Positions 35,970 through 49,103 of a DNA stretch of 64,000 nucleotides are shown piece by piece. The translations under genes were made by a program, and so were the position numbers. The DNA is taken from positions 1 through 64,000 of the forward strand of contig JANQEQ010000012.1 in NCBI GenBank assembly GCA_028278245.1, written 5' to 3'. Numbering within the stretch: the stretch's first letter is position 1; every line of letters starts with the position of its first letter. This DNA comes from Phycisphaerales bacterium. Lineage in GTDB: Bacteria > Planctomycetota > Phycisphaerae > Phycisphaerales > SM1A02. The notes beneath the pieces were generated by a model. That model worked only from the letters and a program-made list of their open reading frames with translations. It had not been told where the DNA came from and did no database searches.

Positions 35970-36521
35970 TTAAGCACTCATTGCTCGTCGGAGACTATCC
36001 TCGGCATGGCGGAGCTTTCTGTAGTATGTGGAACGCGACACTCCCTCCTCACGCTGCGTATCTATTCTATCTTTTCCACTGTGGTGCTTTGTGAATATTC
36101 GACGTTCCTGATCATCGTGAATCTTGTTCAGGACAGGTTGAATGTCCCTGCGTAGCACTAATAATGGCACTCCATCCAAACCAGATGCCTCAGCCTCTTT
36201 ATCATCAAAATCTGAATCAGTTGCTTTTTTTCGATGCCGAGTTGCTCTTCGCCCGAGATCGATAATGCGTCGTACGATGATTTTTCTAAGGCGATACCAC
36301 TTTGTGTGCAAAGGAACTTCACCCTCTGCTTCTGGATTCGGGTGGATATAATGTTGCCAGTATGCCGTGAGGCTATCTTGAATAACAATTTCCCTATCCG
36401 TTATATTGAGGTCATATCGCACCCCAATATGTTCAAACGAGAGTTTTAATGCCTCGTATAGCTCTGGATCTTCATAAAAGTCGCGGATGCGACATTCCCA
36501 AAAGACCTCTTGACTATTCAT
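35970..36521 (-). CDS. Divergent sigma-factor-like DNA-binding protein
   Basis: 183 residues from the ATG at 36521, which has GGGAG nine bases upstream; the frame is open 17 codons further. The N-terminal part looks like a weak sigma region 2: 'TKWYRLRKIIVRRIIDLGRR' is reminiscent of the helix that contacts core polymerase and the -10 element. The C-terminus carries a clear helix-turn-helix, 'EEGVSRSTYYRKLRHAEDSL', like region 4 of ECF factors. The middle is charged. It could be a remote ECF sigma factor or a simple regulator. It lies downstream of the small genes at 36647-37178 in the same direction, with a strong hairpin between. Confidence 0.5.
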   Translation of the reverse strand: MNSQEVFWECRIRDFYEDPELYEALKLSFEHIGVRYDLNITDREIVIQDSLTAYWQHYIHPNPEAEGEVPLHTKWYRLRKIIVRRIIDLGRRATRHRKKATDSDFDDKEAEASGLDGVPLLVLRRDIQPVLNKIHDDQERRIFTKHHSGKDRIDTQREEGVSRSTYYRKLRHAEDSLRRAMSA

Positions 36522-36609
36522 AACTAGGGCTCCCGTATGTGTCCAGGCCCTTTGTAAATCACATGCCAACAACGATCATCAATCAAATGGCATGAAACTA
36601 ATGGAATTC

Positions 36610-37312: not shown

Positions 37313-38506
37313 TCACGCGGCCAAATGCACTGATGCTTGCAGGGGTGGCGGACCTTCAGATGGAATCAATGAAGCAGCTACCGAAGGCATCTGGAAGTCG
37401 TTTATCGAACGTAGCGACGTGTAGCAGAAGTGTTCATTCTTGAGTTGGTTCAGCGCGTGACGGAGGTAACTCAAGGATTGTTCGTGTGGTACATCGATGA
37501 ATGCCTCGAGACGGAGGGTTGCATCTGATATATCTGAGTGTTTCAAATGACGTGACCACAGGTGTGTGAGGTTCACTTTGCCGTCGGAACATGTGTGCAG
37601 GAACGGTTCGAGTGCTGTTGGTTTGCCGACGATGAGAGCTGCATGGGTACCAATTTGGTACGATGGATCGTGTGCATCAGTGATTATTGGTTTTGTGGGC
37701 GATGGGAATTTCTCAATCCAGTTCTCAGCCAAGCGCTCGTGAGCTTCTGCAGATGCCACTACAACAAAGGAAATTGTTGCATGTCCAGCGCCATTTCCAA
37801 CAGCGGTGCATGCTACAGGTTGGGCTTTATGCTCCGTGAAGTAATTATGTATCTGCCATGCTTCTCCTGTTTTGTCCTCAACGATCGCGTCATAAACGTG
37901 TGCTGCATGTTGGTGATTCATCCAGCTGATTGGATGCATTCCACAAAGATGCAGAGGAACATTCGAGTGTAATTGATCTGCGGAGCGCATTCTGATGTAA
38001 GCGTGCGTCTCGCTGTACAAATTATCAAGTTCCTGATGGAGACGTGAACGCTGTTCGGAATGTGGAATGTCAGCTAAAATTTCGATCTTCGCAACGTCAC
38101 CAAGTGGATGTTGAAGAATACCAGCGAAACAGCTGGTGATATTGATATTCAATTCTTCAAAAAGCCGACCAAAGATGCGAATGGGGAGTTTGTGTAGTGG
38201 ATCAGGCCCAACAAATTCCAGGTAATCTGTCCCTGCCCGTCCACGATCAAAGCGCTCACCCTGGAGTGGGGCAATATGCCGATCACGGGAGGGGCGATGC
38301 CAATCTAGTTGATCTGCACCAATTTCAGCTTCTGGACCAACCAGAACAAGTGTCGCATGAGCATATCCATCATCGCCAACAGATGCTTGAAACTGCGGTC
38401 TGAGGTGAGTACCAGACTTCTTTTCGATCTGATGAAATGTATTTGCCCCAAAGCCAAGGTGATCAGGTGTTGACTGAAAGAGTTCTGCAATTTGTGTTCT
38501 GGACAT
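37313..38506 (-). CDS. Duplicated ACT-like domain protein
   Basis: 397 residues, not in a family I can name. It appears to consist of two related halves of about 190 residues. Each has a strand segment ('AHATLVLVGPEAEIGA' and 'HATISFVVVASAEAHE') and then an ACT-like unit. The first unit reads 'GPDPLHKLPIRIFGRLFEEL', then 'NINITSCFAGIL' and 'VAKIEILADIPH'. The second has 'KVNLTHLWSRHLKHSDI' and 'ATLRLEAFIDVPHEQSL'. ACT domains bind amino acids and regulate metabolism, as in GcvR. No catalytic motif or membrane segment is seen. GGAGA lies seven bases before the ATG. The final residues are Pro/Leu-rich. It is transcribed away from the qmo operon; a regulatory link is possible but unproven. Confidence 0.6.
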   Translation of the reverse strand: MSRTQIAELFQSTPDHLGFGANTFHQIEKKSGTHLRPQFQASVGDDGYAHATLVLVGPEAEIGADQLDWHRPSRDRHIAPLQGERFDRGRAGTDYLEFVGPDPLHKLPIRIFGRLFEELNINITSCFAGILQHPLGDVAKIEILADIPHSEQRSRLHQELDNLYSETHAYIRMRSADQLHSNVPLHLCGMHPISWMNHQHAAHVYDAIVEDKTGEAWQIHNYFTEHKAQPVACTAVGNGAGHATISFVVVASAEAHERLAENWIEKFPSPTKPIITDAHDPSYQIGTHAALIVGKPTALEPFLHTCSDGKVNLTHLWSRHLKHSDISDATLRLEAFIDVPHEQSLSYLRHALNQLKNEHFCYTSLRSINDFQMPSVAASLIPSEGPPPLQASVHLAA

Positions 38507-39152: not shown

Positions 39153-40412
39153 ATGAACGAAAGCGCAAAACCCGTTCTGGTCATTGGTGGGGGCATCGCG
39201 GGGATGACAGCCGCAGTTGAAGTTGCTGAAGTCGGGTACCCCGTCATCATTGTTGAAAAGGAAGCGTATCTTGGTGGGCGGGTGATGCGCACACATCAGT
39301 ATTTCCCCAAGATGTGTCCGCCAACCTGCGGATTTGAAATCAACATTCGCAGGATCAGGCAAAACCCTAGAATTTCAGTTCACACGCTTGCCACAGTTGA
39401 GGAAATATCAGGCAACGTGGGAAAATTCAGAGCCAGGGTCAAACTGAATCCGCGGTATGTCACCGGTGAGCACTCAATTGACGATTCCATCACGGAAAAA
39501 CTCACTTCAGAACGAGACAACGATTTCAATCTGGGACTGGACAAAACCAAAGCGCTCTACCTGCCGCACAAAATGGCATATCCACATGAATATGTGCTTG
39601 ATCGCGAAGCGCTGAGCGCAGCAGAAACGGACACACTCACAGAAATCTGTCCCGACGGTGCGATTGATCTTGATATGAAAGAGGAAGAGCTTGAAATCGA
39701 TGTCGGCGCGGTCATCGTGGCTACCGGCTGGCGTCCCTATGATGCCACTAGGCTCGACAATCTCGGCTACGGGCAGTTTTCCAACGTGGTTACCAACGTC
39801 ATGATGGAACGTATCGCCTCGTCGGATGGTCCTACCGGGGGAGAAATTGTACGCCCATCAGACGGCAATACGGCAGAAAACGTCGCTTTCGTCCAGTGCG
39901 CTGGATCGAGGGATGAGAATCACCTCCCCTACTGTTCCGCGGTCTGCTGCATGGGTTCACTCAAGCAGGTTCGCTATCTCAGAGAACAGAACGAAAATGC
40001 CAAAGCCACGGTTTTCTACATCGACATTCGCACAATAGGCAGACTGGAAAAATTCTATTATGACATGCTGGATGATTCAAATGTTTCGTTTGTCAAGGGC
40101 AAGGTGGCAAAGATCAATGAGGACTCTGCAAGCGGTAATCTGACCCTGGATGTTGAAGACACGTTGGCGCGCGAAACACATCACGATCATTTTGACATGG
40201 TGGTTCTGGCAACAGGTGTGGTTCCCAACTCCGCCGATACCCCGATTCCCCTTGACCTGAAATATGATGAGTACGGCTTCATTGATGGTGCAACCGATAT
40301 CGACGGCGTATTTGCCGCCGGCTGCACAAGACATCCATGTGATGTCGCTCGTTCCACAAAAGATGCAACCGCAGCAGCACTCAAGGCAATTCAGTGCCTG
40401 AACAGAGGATGA
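39153..40412 (+). CDS. qmoA: QmoA, FAD-binding HdrA-like subunit
   Basis: 419 residues. The dinucleotide fold 'VLVIGGGIAGMTAAVEVAE' opens the protein and is followed by 'LGGRVMRTHQYFPKMCPPTC', the cysteine motif typical of QmoA. HdrA signatures 'VIVATGWRPYD', 'VQCAGSRDENHLPYCSAVCC' and the end 'GCTRHPCDVARSTKDATAAA' are present. Qmo is the quinone-interacting membrane-bound oxidoreductase of sulfate reducers, which passes electrons between menaquinone and APS reductase. QmoA holds FAD in the cytoplasm. It is first in the operon, with qmoB starting eight bases later. No aprAB genes are nearby, so its partner is uncertain. Confidence 0.92.
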   Translation: MNESAKPVLVIGGGIAGMTAAVEVAEVGYPVIIVEKEAYLGGRVMRTHQYFPKMCPPTCGFEINIRRIRQNPRISVHTLATVEEISGNVGKFRARVKLNPRYVTGEHSIDDSITEKLTSERDNDFNLGLDKTKALYLPHKMAYPHEYVLDREALSAAETDTLTEICPDGAIDLDMKEEELEIDVGAVIVATGWRPYDATRLDNLGYGQFSNVVTNVMMERIASSDGPTGGEIVRPSDGNTAENVAFVQCAGSRDENHLPYCSAVCCMGSLKQVRYLREQNENAKATVFYIDIRTIGRLEKFYYDMLDDSNVSFVKGKVAKINEDSASGNLTLDVEDTLARETHHDHFDMVVLATGVVPNSADTPIPLDLKYDEYGFIDGATDIDGVFAAGCTRHPCDVARSTKDATAAALKAIQCLNRG

Positions 40413-40419
40413 TGATCTC

Positions 40420-42693
40420 ATGGAAGACAAGACCGGCGTCTTCATTTGCACTGGCTATGGAATCGCAGAAGCGCTCGATATCGAGGCTTTATGCAAAGTA
40501 GTCACTGACGATTGCAGTGTTCCATTCTGCAAAACCGTGGAGTCCTGCGAAGGGGCTTCACTGCAATCGATCATCGAGGAAATCAAAAACGAAAGTCTGA
40601 ATCGGGTGATCATTGCAGGAATTTCACGGCGACAATATGCCGATCACCTGTTCCCCGATGATGTCATTGTGGAGATGATTGCGCTGCGTGAGCATGTCGT
40701 CTGGTGTCAACCACCCGGAGAAGAAGATACACAAATGATGGCGGAGGATTATCTCCGCATGTACATCACCAAAGTCCAGAAAATGCAGGTTCTGGAACCA
40801 TTCCAGTCCGAAGAGGAAATCAATAAAAGCATTCTCGTCGTCGGCGGCGGTATCACCGGCATAACTGCTGCTCTGGAAGCCGCTAACGCAGGCTACGAAG
40901 TCCAACTCATCGAAAAGACCGAACAACTGGGGGGCTGGCTCGCAAAACAACACAAATCGATCCCGACAAAAGCCCCCTTCCGAGACTTGGAAGAGACCGG
41001 TATCGACGAACTCATCACACAGATAAATGATAACCCGCGCATCACAGTACACACTTCCGCCAACAACAGCAGCATCTCCGGTGCACCCGGTCTCTTCGAT
41101 GTCACTTTGACCTCAACAGGAAATGGTCAACCCGAAGGTGAAAAGATCGACTCATTCCGAGTTGGCAGTATTATTCAGGCAACCGGCTGGAAACCAACCG
41201 ATCCACGAGATCATCTGGAGTATGGCAAGGTTGAAGATGTCATTCGCAACGTTGATCTGGAAGAGATCATCAAAGAACACGGCCGGATTATTCGCCCATC
41301 CGACGGCAAGGAAGTCAAAAGCATTGCGTTTATTCAATGCGGTGGTTCGCGAGCAAAGGAACATCACTCCTACTGCTCATCGATATGCTGCCTTACGTCA
41401 CTCAAACAGGCCATGTACCTGCGTGAGAGTGATGACGACGCCAAGGCATATATCTTTTATGAATTCATGCGCACTCCCGGCCTGTATGAAGATTTTTATC
41501 GCCGAGCCCAGGACGATCCCGGAGTGTTCCTGACCAGGGGAGAAGTCGCAGAAGTCACTCGCAACGGCGAAGGCCAACTTGTCCTCACAGCGCAGGACAC
41601 CATGCTTGCCGAGGAGATACAGGTCAAGGTTGACATGGTGGTACTCGCCGCCGGTATGATCCCCAACGCTGCCGACGGTGAAGCAATTCGGGCACTGGCC
41701 GATGCCAAGATCACCATCGCCAAAGGGGAATCCGAAGCGCAACAGCAGGCTGCGGAAGAAAAGGTCGAGCAGCTCAAACACCATGAAGGAACGGAAATCC
41801 TGAATCTGAACTATCGACAGGGACCTGACCTGCCGAGCCTTGAATATGGATTCCCGGATTCACACTTCATTTGCTTCCCCTACGAAAGTCGACGCACCGG
41901 AATCTACCCAGCCGGTAGTGTTCGCCAGCCGATGGATGGATCAGGAAGCAGAGAAGATGCAACCGGGGCGGCGTTGAAAGCGATCCAATGTGTCGAGATG
42001 ACTTCCCGTGGTGAAGCCGTGCATCCCCGTGCGGGCGATAAATCCTATCCGGACTTCAATCTGCAACGATGTACTCAGTGCAAACGCTGCACTGAGGAGT
42101 GTCCTTTCGGTGTGCTCAATGAGGATGAAAAAGGCACACCACTGCTCCAGGCTACGCGGTGTCGTCGCTGCGGTGTATGCATGGGTGCCTGCCCTGAACG
42201 CATCGTTTCCTTCAGGGATTACTCCGTGGATATCGTGGGATCGATGATCAAGGCAATCGAAGTACCGGATGAGTACGAAGAAAAACCGAGGATCCTGGCG
42301 CTGCTCTGTGAAAACGATGCAATACCGGCAATGGATCTGGCGGGACAACACCGCCTTCAATCCAATCCGTTCGTCCGCGTTGTCCCGGTTCGATGTCTCG
42401 GATCAGTCAATTTTGTGTGGATCACGGAAGCCATATCGGCCGGCTATGACGGCGTCATTCTAATCGGTTGCAAGTACGGAGATGATTACCAATGTCACTT
42501 CATCAAGGGAAGCGAGATCGCCTCGGCCCGTAGTGACAATATCAGAGAAAAACTGGAACAAATGGCGATGGAGAACGAACGCGTCGAACTCCATCAGCTT
42601 CAAATATCAGAGTATGAAAGAATTCCGGAGATCTTTAATAAGTTCATGGAGGTGATTGAGGAGTACGGCATGAATCCCTTCAAGGGCATGTAA
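40420..42693 (+). CDS. qmoB: QmoB, HdrA-MvhD fusion subunit
   Basis: 757 residues. After 130 residues typical of QmoB comes an FAD fold, 'ILVVGGGITGITAALEAANA', and 'VAFIQCGGSRAKEHHSYCSS'-type HdrA motifs ('IAFIQCGGSRAKEHHSYC'). Two 4Fe-4S clusters lie near residues 550-590 ('CTQCKRCTEECP', 'CRRCGVCMGACP'). The last 150 residues are the MvhD-like domain with 'VRCLGSVNFVWI' and 'GCKYGDDYQCHF', ending 'NPFKGM' as in known QmoB. It links flavin chemistry to Fe-S transfer and might support electron bifurcation or confurcation. A GAGGA motif overlaps the qmoA end. Confidence 0.92.
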   Translation: MEDKTGVFICTGYGIAEALDIEALCKVVTDDCSVPFCKTVESCEGASLQSIIEEIKNESLNRVIIAGISRRQYADHLFPDDVIVEMIALREHVVWCQPPGEEDTQMMAEDYLRMYITKVQKMQVLEPFQSEEEINKSILVVGGGITGITAALEAANAGYEVQLIEKTEQLGGWLAKQHKSIPTKAPFRDLEETGIDELITQINDNPRITVHTSANNSSISGAPGLFDVTLTSTGNGQPEGEKIDSFRVGSIIQATGWKPTDPRDHLEYGKVEDVIRNVDLEEIIKEHGRIIRPSDGKEVKSIAFIQCGGSRAKEHHSYCSSICCLTSLKQAMYLRESDDDAKAYIFYEFMRTPGLYEDFYRRAQDDPGVFLTRGEVAEVTRNGEGQLVLTAQDTMLAEEIQVKVDMVVLAAGMIPNAADGEAIRALADAKITIAKGESEAQQQAAEEKVEQLKHHEGTEILNLNYRQGPDLPSLEYGFPDSHFICFPYESRRTGIYPAGSVRQPMDGSGSREDATGAALKAIQCVEMTSRGEAVHPRAGDKSYPDFNLQRCTQCKRCTEECPFGVLNEDEKGTPLLQATRCRRCGVCMGACPERIVSFRDYSVDIVGSMIKAIEVPDEYEEKPRILALLCENDAIPAMDLAGQHRLQSNPFVRVVPVRCLGSVNFVWITEAISAGYDGVILIGCKYGDDYQCHFIKGSEIASARSDNIREKLEQMAMENERVELHQLQISEYERIPEIFNKFMEVIEEYGMNPFKGM

Positions 42694-42719
42694 CATAAAG
42701 GAGCATCCGGAGGTACATC

Positions 42720-42773
42720 ATGACGAAACCCGCTGTGCATCACTGCAACGTGTGCAGGAGATTCATACAATGA
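42720..42773 (+). CDS. Mini-ORF with CxxC motif, coupled to qmoC
   Basis: Seventeen codons plus stop: MTKPAVHHCNVCRRFIQ. A strong GGAGG lies six bases before its ATG, and its TGA overlaps the ATG of qmoC exactly (ATGA at 42770-42773). It fills the only sizeable gap in the qmo operon. The HHCxxC group could bind a metal or a heme, or the ORF may only deliver ribosomes to qmoC. It is too short to recognise by family. Confidence 0.5.
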   Translation: MTKPAVHHCNVCRRFIQ

Positions 42774-44035
42774 CTACTCCTTTGGCCGATAGCGGAAAAC
42801 CGATCCTGGTTGAGCCGGATCTGGACTTCATCCGGGCAATCCGGGATCACGGCGGAGATTCACTCAAGAAATGTATCCAGTGTGGTACGTGCTCTGCAAC
42901 CTGCACCATCACTCCTGATCACGATCCCTTCCCCCGGAAGGAAATTGCCTGGGCTAACTGGGGGATGAAAGAACGACTCTTTGCCTCCCCTGATATTTGG
43001 CGCTGTTATCAATGTAATGATTGCTCAGTCAGGTGTCCGCGTGATGCAAGACCGGGTGATATTCTCAACATTGTCCGACGTGAGTGCATACAGCATTATG
43101 CATTTCCCAGGTTTCTCGGTCGATGGTTGAATCAACCTCACCACATTCCCTTATTGCTCGGCATTCCCGCAGCCCTTCTTGCCCTTACTATGGTGGTAAG
43201 AGATCCGATAGAAAGTGTTTTGGGAATCGAAAAATACGACAGTCAGCATATTATCTATTCCTATTCCAGCCTGTTCCCCCATTGGGTACTCAACACGTTT
43301 TTCCTTTCGCTGACTGCGCTGGTGATCATCACGTTTGTTATTAGTGTCGCGCGTTTCTGGAGTGCGATGAAGGATGCTGCCTCTCACGAACGAATTGCCA
43401 AGCCCCAGAAAAATCTCTTCCCCAGCATCATGTCAGTGCTCAAAGCCGTCGTAAAACATGATAAGTTTAATTTGTGTGACGATGCGAAATCGAGATTCCT
43501 ACCCCATTTTCTCCTGGTTTTTGGCTTCGTTTCCCTTGTTATTACTGTAACGTGGATGGTTACCGCAAGGTATAATCCCGTGATATTAATCGACTTCAAA
43601 TACCCCCTTGCATTCCTGAATCCGTGGAAAATGCTGGCGAATGTGGGCGGTATTGCAATTACAGTCGGTTGCCTGCTGATGATTCGAGACCGCCTGAGAA
43701 ACAGCGGAAGAGCCGGCTTTGGTAATTATTTTGACTGGTCGTTTTTATTAAATGTCTTAATCGTGGCGCTTACCGGTTTTGCAGCAGAACTCATGCACTA
43801 TCTGCGGCTGGAACCGCATCGACACGTAGTTTACTTTGTCCACCTTGTCTTTGTGTTCACTCTCATTATCTATATGCCCTATACCAAATTTGCCCACATG
43901 GTGTATCGAACCGCCGCACTTGTATTCATCGAGCATTTCGGCATGAACTCAGACGAGCCAGATTCCCCGGCTGGTAATCGCAGCTGTGGCAAACCAGAGG
44001 TAATGGACGATGTTCAAGAAACTGCAACAGTATGA
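42770..44035 (+). CDS. qmoC: QmoC, HdrC/HdrE-like Fe-S and heme b membrane subunit
   Basis: 421 residues from the ATG at 42770, which has AGGAG eight bases upstream. The cytoplasmic N-terminus has two cluster motifs, 'CIQCGTCSATCTI' near 36 and 'CYQCNDCSVRCP' near 79, then 'DARPGDILNIVRRE', a hallmark of QmoC and HdrC. Six hydrophobic segments follow (roughly 125-400), the HdrE/NarI-like part with histidines for heme b, such as 'ELMHYLRLEPHRHVVYFVHL'. It carries electrons between menaquinone in the membrane and the QmoAB subunits. Its end overlaps the start of the dsrJ-like gene by 26 bases, which ties the two modules into one transcript. Confidence 0.9.
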   Translation: MTTPLADSGKPILVEPDLDFIRAIRDHGGDSLKKCIQCGTCSATCTITPDHDPFPRKEIAWANWGMKERLFASPDIWRCYQCNDCSVRCPRDARPGDILNIVRRECIQHYAFPRFLGRWLNQPHHIPLLLGIPAALLALTMVVRDPIESVLGIEKYDSQHIIYSYSSLFPHWVLNTFFLSLTALVIITFVISVARFWSAMKDAASHERIAKPQKNLFPSIMSVLKAVVKHDKFNLCDDAKSRFLPHFLLVFGFVSLVITVTWMVTARYNPVILIDFKYPLAFLNPWKMLANVGGIAITVGCLLMIRDRLRNSGRAGFGNYFDWSFLLNVLIVALTGFAAELMHYLRLEPHRHVVYFVHLVFVFTLIIYMPYTKFAHMVYRTAALVFIEHFGMNSDEPDSPAGNRSCGKPEVMDDVQETATV

Positions 44036-44408
44036 TAAAGGCACGCGTTACGTTGCGCTTGTTGTGCTCGTCATATTGATCCCCCTTGCTTACAGCATTG
44101 TGAAGCCTATCTTTGCGCATAATGATCCGATCACAGAGGTATTTCTGGAAAAGCCTGATCCCTCACACACCAGTTGTGTAAGAGACACAACCTACATGCG
44201 ACTCCATCACTGGGAACTCCTGACGAAAATCCGGGAGGAGGTCGTACGTTACGGGAACAGAACAATTGAAATTCGCGACGGGAAGAAGGAAGCAATTGGT
44301 CTCAATGATTGTCGCAATTGCCATACCAGCCGAGAACGATTCTGTGATCGCTGTCACAACGCTGTTAATCTCTATCCTGAATGTTGGGGGTGCCATTACT
44401 ATCCGTAA
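44010..44408 (+). CDS. dsrJ: DsrJ-like triheme cytochrome c
   Basis: 132 residues. One N-terminal membrane anchor (about 15-32) puts the rest outside the cytoplasm. Three heme-binding motifs crowd the C-terminus: CRNCH (101-105), CDRCH (112-116) and CWGCH (125-129). 'SCVRDTTYMRLHHWELL' near residue 55 matches the DsrJ segment whose Cys is proposed to ligate one heme in the unusual His/Cys way. GAGG precedes the ATG, which lies inside the qmoC 3' end. In sulfur bacteria DsrJ is part of DsrMKJOP. Here it follows QmoC instead of DsrK. Confidence 0.88.
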   Translation: MFKKLQQYDKGTRYVALVVLVILIPLAYSIVKPIFAHNDPITEVFLEKPDPSHTSCVRDTTYMRLHHWELLTKIREEVVRYGNRTIEIRDGKKEAIGLNDCRNCHTSRERFCDRCHNAVNLYPECWGCHYYP

Positions 44409-44466
44409 GAAATCCACCGTTCTGGTGGTGCCTATATAAAAACACCCTCTCAGAAGGAGAGGCAAG

Positions 44467-45207
44467 ATGAACAGAAGAGAATTCCTGGAAGCCGGCGGAG
44501 GCATACTTTTCGCAGGAGTATCCTGCGCCTATGCCGGACACCTGCTGACATCCTATGCGACAAAAACTACAGGCGAGGATAGCCCGGCATTCGGTAAAAA
44601 AATGGGGATGGTCATTGATGTCAACAAATGCCGAAAAGGATGCACGGAATGTCTTAAAGCATGCAAGGCTGAAAACAACATCGCGCAACCTGGAGATTCG
44701 AGGTGGGATGTCCATTGGATCAGGAAAGTCACGCTCAAGGATAAGAACAACACAAATGTTCCCGAGAAACCTGTTGTTCTATTGTGCAATCACTGCGACA
44801 AACCTCCCTGCGCGCAGGTCTGCCCGGTCCAGGCAACTTTCAAACGACCCGACGGAATCGTTATCGTCGATTATCACAGGTGCATTGGATGCAGGTATTG
44901 TGTGATTGCATGTCCCTACAACGCCCGGTACTTCAACTTCAAGGAGGCTGAAGTCTGGTCCAACAAGGGATATCCCAGAAGAACCCACGGCGTTGCCGAA
45001 GCATGTAATCTCTGCGCCCACCGTTTGGAAATAGGTGATGTTCCTGCATGTGTCGTAGCATGTCAGAACATCGGGGCGGGTGCAATAACTGTGGGTGACA
45101 TGAACGATCCTGAGAGTGATATCTCAAAATTGATCGCAAACAATTCGACTAAGCGCATCAGAATGGATCTGGGTACGGAGCCAAAGGTGCATTATATCGG
45201 TCTGTAG
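44467..45207 (+). CDS. dsrO: DsrO-like periplasmic ferredoxin subunit
   Basis: 246 residues. The N-terminus MNRREFLEAGGGILFAG has the twin arginine and hydrophobic core of a Tat signal, so the folded protein is exported. Four ferredoxin-type cysteine groups follow: one around residues 55-66, 'CNHCDKPPCAQVCP' near 107-120, 'CIGCRYCVIACP' near 139-150 and 'CNLCAHRLEIGDVPACVVAC' later. The closing 'AGAITVGDMNDPESDISKLI' is typical of DsrO. It would pass electrons between the triheme cytochrome and the NrfD-like membrane subunit. AGAAGGAGAGG lies before the ATG. Confidence 0.9.
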   Translation: MNRREFLEAGGGILFAGVSCAYAGHLLTSYATKTTGEDSPAFGKKMGMVIDVNKCRKGCTECLKACKAENNIAQPGDSRWDVHWIRKVTLKDKNNTNVPEKPVVLLCNHCDKPPCAQVCPVQATFKRPDGIVIVDYHRCIGCRYCVIACPYNARYFNFKEAEVWSNKGYPRRTHGVAEACNLCAHRLEIGDVPACVVACQNIGAGAITVGDMNDPESDISKLIANNSTKRIRMDLGTEPKVHYIGL

Positions 45208-45229
45208 ATGTTTCTCTGTGAGGTGCCGC

Positions 45230-46435
45230 ATGGAGGTTAAATTTGAAAGTGTTGAGGGGAGATCATTACAGTATTACCTGTTGCTGTTGGTACTTGCATT
45301 GATGGCCGCAGCAGGTGCTGCGGTTACATGGTGGGCCAGCATATCGGGACTGTGGATAACCGGAATGACCAACCGCATTCCGTGGGGCTTCCAGATCGTG
45401 ATGGCGGTGTATTACATCGGTTTCTCTGAAGGATGTCTCGTCGTCGCCGGTTTGTATGGTGTTTTCGGGAAGCGTGAATACAAGCCATTTGTAAGAATCG
45501 CAGTTTACCTTGCCATGCTCTTTCTGATCGCAGGACTTCTATCGATCTTCACCGACCAGGGCAGGATGGACAGGGTATTTGTCGAACCATTCATCCATTT
45601 CAATCTCCAGTCGATGTTCTCGATCAATCCGATCTTGTATCTCGGTCACATCGTGATCTGTCTGATTTTTCTCGGGGCGTTATTCAAGGAAAAAGAAGGA
45701 TTCACAAGAGTCATCGCTACACTTGCTTTTGCCTGGGCTTTTTGTGTCCACAGCGGTACGGGAGCGATTTTCGGTTACGGTGCGCGTGAGCTTTACGAAT
45801 CGCCGATGCTTCCGGCAACCTTCGTGGCTGCAGCCATGGCATCCGGCATTGCCCTGATGATCGTCGTTATCGTCTCACTTTTTAAGATTACCAAACGACA
45901 GGTAGATGACGGCCTGATTCTGTGGCTGGGGAAACTCATGGCCGTCACGATTACCGTTGTCGTTTATTTCGTGTTCGTGGAAAATGCATACCGGGCTTAC
46001 ATCGTCGAGCTGCGCGAAGCGGCTCATTATTATTTGTTCGGCGGTTTCCACAGCATCTTGTTCTGGTTCGGGCTTGTACTCTGTGGAATGATCCTACCCA
46101 TGCTGATTATCTTCAATCGGAAAACCGGACATTCCGTGCGCTGGGTTATCATTGCTTCGGTATTGGTACTCTTCGGAGTTCTGTGCGAAAGATATGTGAT
46201 TGTCCTGCCCGGCCTGACACATCCTCCCGACCTCTTCCCCGGCATGGAAATCACGACCGTTCCCGGAATTAAAGTCGACGACGGCGTCGTCAGCTATTCG
46301 ATCAGTTTTGTTGAAGTGGTTCAGGCACTGGGTGTCGTCGGTGTGATCGGCTTCCTGTTTGTGTTCGGATTAAAAGTACTCAAGCTGCTTCCAAACGAAG
46401 CACGAGTTCTCGATCACCACACACCAGCATCCTGA
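45230..46435 (+). CDS. dsrP: DsrP-like NrfD-family membrane subunit
   Basis: 401 residues from the ATG at 45230 (GAGG eight bases upstream). About ten membrane segments fill the protein. 'GMTNRIPWGFQIVMAVYYIGFSEG' style sequence ('NRIPWGFQIVMAVYYIGF') in the first third marks the NrfD/DsrP group, which oxidises or reduces quinones without carrying its own cofactor. It follows dsrO after 22 bases and is the last redox gene. Together DsrJOP would form a membrane unit facing the periplasm. Whether it binds QmoABC is unknown. Confidence 0.9.
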   Translation: MEVKFESVEGRSLQYYLLLLVLALMAAAGAAVTWWASISGLWITGMTNRIPWGFQIVMAVYYIGFSEGCLVVAGLYGVFGKREYKPFVRIAVYLAMLFLIAGLLSIFTDQGRMDRVFVEPFIHFNLQSMFSINPILYLGHIVICLIFLGALFKEKEGFTRVIATLAFAWAFCVHSGTGAIFGYGARELYESPMLPATFVAAAMASGIALMIVVIVSLFKITKRQVDDGLILWLGKLMAVTITVVVYFVFVENAYRAYIVELREAAHYYLFGGFHSILFWFGLVLCGMILPMLIIFNRKTGHSVRWVIIASVLVLFGVLCERYVIVLPGLTHPPDLFPGMEITTVPGIKVDDGVVSYSISFVEVVQALGVVGVIGFLFVFGLKVLKLLPNEARVLDHHTPAS

Positions 46436-47209: not shown

Positions 47210-47659
47210 TTAGTCGCCGATGAGTTCTTTGATTTTCACGATGATATCTTCAGGATCGATCGGTTTATCAACGAACATGTTCGGCTTGACCACACCCTCT
47301 TCGCGCATCTTTTGAATCGTCTTTCTCAACGATTCTCTTAGTTCATCGTAAGGGGCGTCGAACGTTCCATCCTTCTTTTCATCCTGTTCGCTCAGAGAGC
47401 CGGCCACTCCGGTAACCATGATGACGGGCGTATCCTTGAAGTCTTCATCCTTCCGCAACTGTTTGAAAAGAACAAAGCCCGTGCGTTTCGGCATCATCAC
47501 ATCCAGAATCATGAGATCTGGTTTTTCAAGTTTGGCCTTCTCGTAACCCGCTTTACCGTCAGGAGCAGAAAACGCTTCGTAGCCGTTTTCCTCCAGCGCC
47601 AGCGTGAGGAACTTGACTACACTCGTATCATCATCAATGACCAGCACCTTCTTGGCCAT
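47210..47659 (-). CDS. Single-domain response regulator
   Basis: 149 residues from the ATG at 47659, eight bases after AGGAGG. It is a receiver only: 'KVLVIDDDTSVVKFLTLALE', phospho-acceptor Asp in 'DLMILDVMMPKRTG', Thr in 'IMVTGV' and Lys in 'FVDKPIDPED'. An insert of about 25 charged residues before that Lys is unusual. There is no output domain, so it probably acts by protein contact. It overlaps the end of the histidine kinase gene by 26 bases, so the two are a cognate pair. Confidence 0.9.
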   Translation of the reverse strand: MAKKVLVIDDDTSVVKFLTLALEENGYEAFSAPDGKAGYEKAKLEKPDLMILDVMMPKRTGFVLFKQLRKDEDFKDTPVIMVTGVAGSLSEQDEKKDGTFDAPYDELRESLRKTIQKMREEGVVKPNMFVDKPIDPEDIIVKIKELIGD

Positions 47660-49103
47660 CACGATCCTCCTTGTTCTGCCCCGAACCGGCTATCGGCAGC
47701 AGCATGCGAAACTCAGTCCAACAGCCGGGTTCAGAATCAACATTGATAGTCGCACCATGTAGGTTAACGATTCTCAGGGTGAGTGCCAGTCCCAGCCCTG
47801 TCCCCTTCTTCTTTTTCGTGCTGAAGAATGGTGTAAAAATGCTGGATTTGATTGCCTCGGTCATGCCCGGACCATTATCACGAATATCGATCGCAAGACT
47901 GCCCGTCTCCCGTTGATGGGTCACCTTCAGATCAATCTGCGGCGTCTCCTCCTCTTCATATTCCTTGGTCAGACACGCTTCCAGTGCGTTGGAAACTATA
48001 TCCATAATAGCAGATTGAATAAGACTGGGATCACATTGAATTTCCGGCAAATCATCCGGAACATGTGTCTTGAACACGACACCGTTATCTGAAGCGTTCT
48101 GGGTGAAGACGTGTTCAACCCTGGAAACGATATCTCCCAGTAACACCGACTTCAGTTCCGGCTCCCATTCCTTCACGTACATCAGCAGGTTCTTGGAAAA
48201 CTCTCGGATGCTCGCAATACCCTCAGCCACGATATCCCAGCCATCAGAGAGAATCTCCCAATCCTGTTTCTCGATCCCCTTGCGAACCATATACGACCCA
48301 CCCGGCAACGCGTTCAGCATATTTTTCATCGTGTGTTGAATCGCAGTGAACGACTGGCCGATTGCCACATACTTTTCAGATTGAATCAATTTCTTTTGCA
48401 GATTCTTTTCATTCGTCACATCTTTGCTGATGCCGAATGTTCCAATGGGAAATCCGTGTGGCCCGCGGAGCCTGGAGAGCGTGAGGATGACTTCGCGTAC
48501 TTGACCATCTTTTGCCAGGAAACGTGTTTCGTAGTTGATGACATTATCCGAATCCTGCAATTGGGCAATGGCTACATCCCGTTCCTGCGGATCAGCAAAC
48601 AGCTTTTCAATCGGCTGGTCGATCACTTCCGCGCGTTCATATCCCAAAGCAGTTTCAGCCCCGGTGTTGAAGGTCTGGATCATGCCGGCTGGATTCACCG
48701 TGATAATGATATCTGCGGAACTTTCGACAATGCCTTCCAGGTAATTTCTGGCTTCGCGCAGATCGGTCAGCAGCAACTCCAGTTTGGAGGTCATTTCGTT
48801 GAACGAATCCGCCACGATCGAAAATTCATCCTTCCGTGACACGCTCATGCGATAACTCAGATCCCCCCGGGCAATCTTCATCATGCCGGCAATCAGGATT
48901 CTGATCGGTCTTTCCAGGAAATACCAGACGGTAAACCAGATTGCCAACGCTCCCACAGCTACAGCAATTGCCGCTACCACAATATTCGTTACCAGCCGAT
49001 CACCCGCCAGTGTGTGTAGAACCATTGTCATCACCACCACCAGTATGGTGATCATGACAAATACAGCGCTCAGCTTCCAGACGATGATACTTCTACGAAA
49101 CAC
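47634..49103 (-). CDS. Membrane histidine kinase with HAMP and PAS domains
   Basis: 489 residues. The start is a GTG, because an in-frame TAG lies just before it. Two close membrane segments (about 10-30 and 35-62) flank almost no outer loop. HAMP follows ('RPIRILIAGMMKIARGDLSY'), then a PAS domain (about 110-230) and a dimerisation region with the probable phospho-His in 'AIQHTMKNMLNALPGG', an atypical context. The ATPase boxes are 'DIVSNALEACL', 'DNGPGMT' and 'KGTGLGLALT'. It is paired with the receiver gene. It may respond to membrane redox state, given the qmo operon next door; this is only proximity. Confidence 0.9.
   Translation of the reverse strand: MFRRSIIVWKLSAVFVMITILVVVMTMVLHTLAGDRLVTNIVVAAIAVAVGALAIWFTVWYFLERPIRILIAGMMKIARGDLSYRMSVSRKDEFSIVADSFNEMTSKLELLLTDLREARNYLEGIVESSADIIITVNPAGMIQTFNTGAETALGYERAEVIDQPIEKLFADPQERDVAIAQLQDSDNVINYETRFLAKDGQVREVILTLSRLRGPHGFPIGTFGISKDVTNEKNLQKKLIQSEKYVAIGQSFTAIQHTMKNMLNALPGGSYMVRKGIEKQDWEILSDGWDIVAEGIASIREFSKNLLMYVKEWEPELKSVLLGDIVSRVEHVFTQNASDNGVVFKTHVPDDLPEIQCDPSLIQSAIMDIVSNALEACLTKEYEEEETPQIDLKVTHQRETGSLAIDIRDNGPGMTEAIKSSIFTPFFSTKKKKGTGLGLALTLRIVNLHGATINVDSEPGCWTEFRMLLPIAGSGQNKEDRDGQEGAGH

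Follow-up and report, generated by a model that had tools for sequence, protein, structure and literature searches.

Qmo and DsrJOP are normally parts of two different membrane machines of sulfur respiration. Sulfate respiration has long posed the question of how menaquinol, periplasmic cytochromes and the sulfur enzymes of the cytoplasm are coupled to one another, and what DsrJOP does is one of the least understood aspects of this question. Two branches of DsrP have been described, and a quinone cycle has been proposed between DsrMK and DsrJOP (PMC8076601). We analyzed a stretch of 64,000 nucleotides from a Phycisphaerales bacterium, called the window here, in which the two systems meet in one hybrid operon, as listed in Table 1. 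An earlier note on this DNA had described an unbroken run from qmoABC into dsrJOP with an overlap of qmoC and dsrJ. This description held, since all six ORFs have intact reading frames on one strand in the order first stated, and the overlap is 26 nt. Scans for promoters and terminators gave nothing specific.

Table 1. Features of the hybrid operon and its surroundings in the window
Feature	Position	Strand	Description
ORF	35970..36572	-	upstream of the operon; weak NCBIfam match alone
ORF	37313..38506	-	upstream of the operon; no family match
qmoA	39153..40412	+	HdrA-like FAD protein; lacks the ferredoxin-type Cys clusters seen in ordinary QmoA
qmoB	40420..42693	+	HdrA-like FAD protein, two [4Fe-4S] motifs, C-terminal MvhD/FlpD domain; own clade (100/100)
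qmoC	about 42770..44035	+	fusion of an HdrC-like Fe-S domain and a di-haem cytochrome b; haem His and 8 Cys present
dsrJ	44010..44408	+	triheme cytochrome c with a membrane anchor; CxxCH motifs at aa 101, 112 and 125; Cys56 present
dsrO	44467..45207	+	periplasmic-type protein, 16 conserved Cys (four [4Fe-4S])
dsrP	45230..46435 (ORF opens 45218)	+	NrfD-family quinone-site membrane subunit, distinct type
receiver-only response regulator	47210..47662	-	adjoins operon; conserved, 60-67% identical in relatives
sensor histidine kinase	47634..49103	-	2 TM, HAMP, PAS, HATPase; adjoins operon, conserved

The family models were matched above their cut-offs by QmoC (NF038018, 398 bits, cut-off 300) and DsrO (NF045797, 277 bits, cut-off 200), and DsrJ fell narrowly under its own (NF038038, 92 bits, cut-off 100). 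DsrJ has a single N-terminal membrane helix and, with three CxxCH motifs and Cys56, has the features of the triheme cytochrome c. QmoA and QmoB are neighboring HdrA-like FAD proteins with the MvhD domain on QmoB, as expected of QmoABC. Sequence searches of the PDB led from QmoB and QmoC to HdrABC/MvhD relatives; no Qmo, DsrP or DsrJ structures were found there. DsrP reached 78.6 bits against a cut-off of 350 (NF045798). This cut-off was dropped as a measure of membership because a control, the DsrP of an ordinary planctomycete dsrC-dsrM-dsrK-dsrJ-dsrO-dsrP cluster, scored just 128 bits and was below it too. The DsrP of hybrid operons is about 24-27% identical to ordinary DsrP, and a structural model of it (mean pLDDT 67) matched the fold of ActC/ActF, subunits of alternative complex III.

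The earlier note had proposed a search for the same gene order in other genomes. The order was found at 12 loci in two phyla, the window included (11 further genomes), and its owners are the window's genome, two further Planctomycetota genomes and Zixibacteriota. One of the 12, in genome G179, has its qmoA cut at a contig end. The remaining copies are incomplete at contig ends or at a scaffold gap; a truncated operon in genome G544 was ruled out since a gap of 100 N accounts for it. A profile of hybrid-type DsrP (A1) detected the protein in 12 of 132 Zixibacteriota genomes, with 480-777 bits in the owners compared to at most 83 in the remaining genomes. Among Planctomycetota, hybrid-type DsrP occurs in 4 of 392 genomes, one of which (G070) has its dsrJOP genes (JOP) in a different setting. 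The QmoC family scan gave five genomes above the cut-off in a phylum sample of 392, the window's among them, and the window's own genome alone among 60 close relatives. A strict scan of named genomes with QmoC returned one relative, a Zixibacteriota MAG with the full six-gene order (JAGVQM010000017.1); its patterns were strict, and the phylum scans with families and alignments found more. The class-level scan comprised 9 genomes. All of these counts refer to sampled genomes of Planctomycetota and Zixibacteriota, to MAG data and to E-values per genome. Recurrence on this scale is far beyond chance, and the hybrid operon is a conserved unit and not a local accident. The literature searched, which covered articles without their supplements, did not contain the joined cross-phylum gene order with its signaling pair.

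One could suppose that remnants of an ordinary QmoABC and an ordinary DsrMKJOP were juxtaposed by rearrangement after horizontal transfer and have no joint function. This would fit the patchy spread, as no qmoC over the cut-off was found in 36 family relatives and hybrid DsrP is confined to so few planctomycetes. Such an origin is contradicted by the order and the linked signaling genes seen across two phyla, and with intact frames, conserved ligands and a composition that matches the host it is hardly credible. Contamination or a fresh transfer was also rejected: the tetranucleotide fit of the operon is 0.916, within the range of 0.811-0.948 of other slices of this genome.

A histidine kinase adjoins the operon in all 15 copies from the two phyla, and a receiver-only response regulator does so in 14, the remaining copy lying at a contig end. 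No other neighbor is widely recurrent among these 15 copies. In Zixibacteriota the pair follows the operon on its own strand; in the window and in G179 it also lies downstream but is convergent, and in G274 it stands upstream. That the linkage is kept despite the varying arrangement suggests that it has a function. Conservation of the regulators exceeds that of QmoC or DsrJ. The closest family for the regulator, at 98 bits (cut-off 160), is that of DVU0259, which adjoins tmcABCD. Another respiratory complex adjoining signaling genes was seen on contig C99 of the window's genome (L183:4045-11777), where genes for two receiver proteins, a histidine kinase and NrfD-like, DsrO-like and DsrK-like proteins stand in a row.

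In trees, which cover the fetched sequences only, QmoB of the hybrid type stood apart from ordinary QmoB even of the same genomes, and its identity to the ordinary QmoB of these phyla is about 50-56%. JOP-linked QmoC formed a 100/100 clade that includes one QmoC of G070 as sister to the QmoC of hybrid operons. DsrO of the hybrid operons formed a 100/100 group together with that of contig C15 of G070. Two loci of G070 are concerned. At the first (L039:2640-12316), aprA, a YkgJ-like gene, qmoABC and dsrJ-dsrO-dsrP stand in a row, with O and P of the ordinary type; no dsrA match was found in this genome. At the second, on C15, JOP of the hybrid type sits inside a dsrM-dsrK-dsrC cluster, between dsrM and dsrK. 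Since the QmoC of G070 groups with hybrid QmoC but its O and P are ordinary, the juxtaposition of qmoABC and dsrJOP has two forms, which have the QmoC lineage in common and not the DsrO lineage. The gene order of the hybrid operons is co-inherited.

The Cys and haem His of QmoC, the three haem motifs of DsrJ and the Cys of DsrO are all conserved, and Cys56 of DsrJ is present in 12 of 13 hybrid copies compared to 14 of 14 ordinary ones. All JOP-linked QmoC, that of G070 among them, have three extra His, which the other QmoC of the set lack. The ferredoxin-type Cys of QmoA (C107, C110, C113 and C117) are present in none of 10 hybrid copies compared to all 7 ordinary ones, and the second Cys motif is mostly lost in the hybrid copies. 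QmoB of the hybrid type has lost C13 and C68 and has gained C37 and mostly C96. To judge by these ligands, the membrane end is intact and the cytoplasmic end is altered. The loss from QmoA in all copies suggests that APS reductase is not the cytoplasmic partner and argues for a different, simpler cytoplasmic electron path. Electron bifurcation, which the earlier note had raised, found no support and is not favored; HdrA-type FAD domains are present in the sequence, and the ferredoxin clusters of QmoA are lost. The connection of periplasmic, membrane and cytoplasmic parts that was claimed alongside it agrees with the predicted parts, which span all three.

No aprA or dsrA match was found on any contig of the window's genome (assembly 88.8% complete); the earlier note had stated the absence of aprAB and dsrAB for the window. 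The lost QmoA clusters and the missing aprA match in this genome make APS reductase, by its usual route, an improbable cytoplasmic partner. Of the 14 other owners, 13 carry aprA and 12 a dsrA over the cut-off, and those inspected also have separate ordinary qmo and dsrMKJOP genes; the window's genome is the sole owner with neither. Therefore, the hybrid operon is an extra complex and no replacement; the new layout once proposed stands in its order and its conservation across phyla, but not in a substitute role. In Zixibacteriota, ordinary qmoA and qmoB were seen with the dsr cluster and qmoC beside aprA (L167-L181).

Another possible explanation is that the complex feeds or drains AprAB instead of ordinary QmoABC, via periplasmic cytochromes and DsrJOP, and that the window's genome lost sat-aprAB and dsrAB or its assembly misses them. 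The prevalence of aprA among the owners and the row from aprA to dsrJOP in G070 speak for this. Also, in several Zixibacteriota a single contig carries apr and dsr within some tens of kb of each other; at this completeness, one gap could hide both in the window's genome. However, the hybrid unit was never seen adjoining aprA even where both co-occur (13 of 14 relatives), the Zixibacteriota examined have the separate ordinary QmoA/QmoB and QmoC just described, and the hybrid QmoA lacks clusters present in all ordinary QmoA of the set. A second qmoC or dsrO above the cut-off was not found in genome G000, which also counts against a role as APS reductase donor, and we consider this role quite improbable.

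DsrM and DsrK are absent from the operon in the window and in all relatives of the hybrid operon type. The earlier claim has QmoC stand in for DsrMK, but the window's genome carries a divergent pair on contig C107 (L185:7855-11919), in the order HTH regulator, dsrC, dsrM, dsrK and tandem dsrC, without JOP. Its DsrK scores 354 bits against a cut-off of 400 and is 69% identical to the DsrK of the closely related C15 cluster of G070. This cluster weakens the claim, which is now one of two readings. In the C107 cluster, the inner Cys of DsrC has moved (FPCGTVKGAYRLAGLPRPPGCA), DsrM is short and the tandem DsrC is a two-domain protein; a near relative of the cluster occurs in G070 (L132) and a partial one in L133. 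Second copies, named beforehand as grounds for doubting the hybrid layout, are thus present in the relatives and in part, on C107, in the window's genome. The other such ground, relatives with the two halves far apart, was unseen among those with hybrid QmoB, although G070 has hybrid JOP within its dsrM-dsrK cluster.

The second reading is that the operon encodes two complexes, with QmoABC alone as a quinone oxidoreductase and DsrJOP working with DsrM/DsrK-like proteins encoded elsewhere, such as those of C107, and acting on DsrC-like proteins. Its main support is that C107 has no JOP while the like cluster of G070 holds JOP of the hybrid type. In addition, of the 4 planctomycete genomes with hybrid DsrP, 3 carry tandem DsrC, compared to 2 of the 388 without hybrid DsrP, counts that carry no correction for kinship, and the copy in G179 is unlinked to dsrMK; the tandem-DsrC loci of G179, G078 and G245 have no adjoining dsrM or dsrK. 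On the other hand, Zixibacteriota and G274 keep JOP with qmoABC despite an ordinary dsrMKJOP elsewhere, and the separate clade and three extra His of JOP-linked QmoC would be expected if QmoC contacts JOP. Two complexes are unlikely in our judgment, though this is the most serious of the alternatives.

The best explanation, which we hold to be fairly probable, is a dedicated quinone-linked transmembrane electron-transfer complex predicted to consist of paralogues of QmoABC and DsrJOP. A periplasmic cytochrome partner would exchange electrons with DsrJ and then with the four Fe-S clusters of DsrO. At DsrP, which is of the NrfD type, electrons would be exchanged with the menaquinone pool. QmoC, through its haem b and its Fe-S groups, would provide the link to the flavins of QmoA/QmoB, and these may exchange electrons with a soluble acceptor or donor in the cytoplasm. 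The linked two-component system would switch or tune the complex. We infer the physical assembly, direction of flow, partners and regulation from the gene order, co-inheritance, ligands and signaling linkage that were observed. Against this explanation, the genes could be linked through shared regulation alone, hybrid-type JOP inside the dsrM-dsrK-dsrC cluster of G070 means that JOP is not Qmo-bound everywhere, and the dsrM-dsrK pair of the window's genome has no JOP of its own. A bolder proposal is that QmoABC and DsrJOP form one physical complex. It would be a third membrane redox machine of the sulfur type, distinct from Qmo and DsrMKJOP, have a new partner in the cytoplasm and be controlled directly by a receiver-only regulator. 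We offer it tentatively and regard it as somewhat doubtful.

These results suggest an undescribed route for electrons across the membrane. In this natural swap of modules, retained across phyla next to a signaling pair, JOP is tied to QmoABC and not to DsrMK, which offers a direct test of the role of JOP. Metagenome pipelines that equate qmoABC or dsrJOP with sulfate reduction can be misled by such operons.

The Tmc and Hmc complexes of Desulfovibrio are alike in being transmembrane cytochrome/Fe-S complexes, and Tmc also through the DVU0259-like regulator. Their subunits are otherwise different, and they are not known to have HdrA-like flavoproteins. Alternative complex III shares the fold of its NrfD-type membrane subunit (ActC/ActF) with the modeled DsrP, but it has no Qmo or DsrJ parts. 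The QmoABC of sulfate reducers has the same three-gene order, HdrA-like QmoA and QmoB, and a QmoC that combines HdrC with cytochrome b. In contrast, the hybrid copies form their own clade, have lost the QmoA clusters and have rearranged N-terminal Cys in QmoB, and the hybrid unit is joined to DsrJOP and does not lie beside aprAB. Type II Qmo likewise occurs without Apr/Dsr (PMC10504309); this likeness is one of description, and the sequence comparison of hybrid QmoB was with ordinary QmoB. DsrMKJOP has homologous J, O and P in identical order with the cofactor ligands of J and O conserved, whereas the hybrid operon has QmoABC for DsrM and DsrK and a DsrP of a distinct type.
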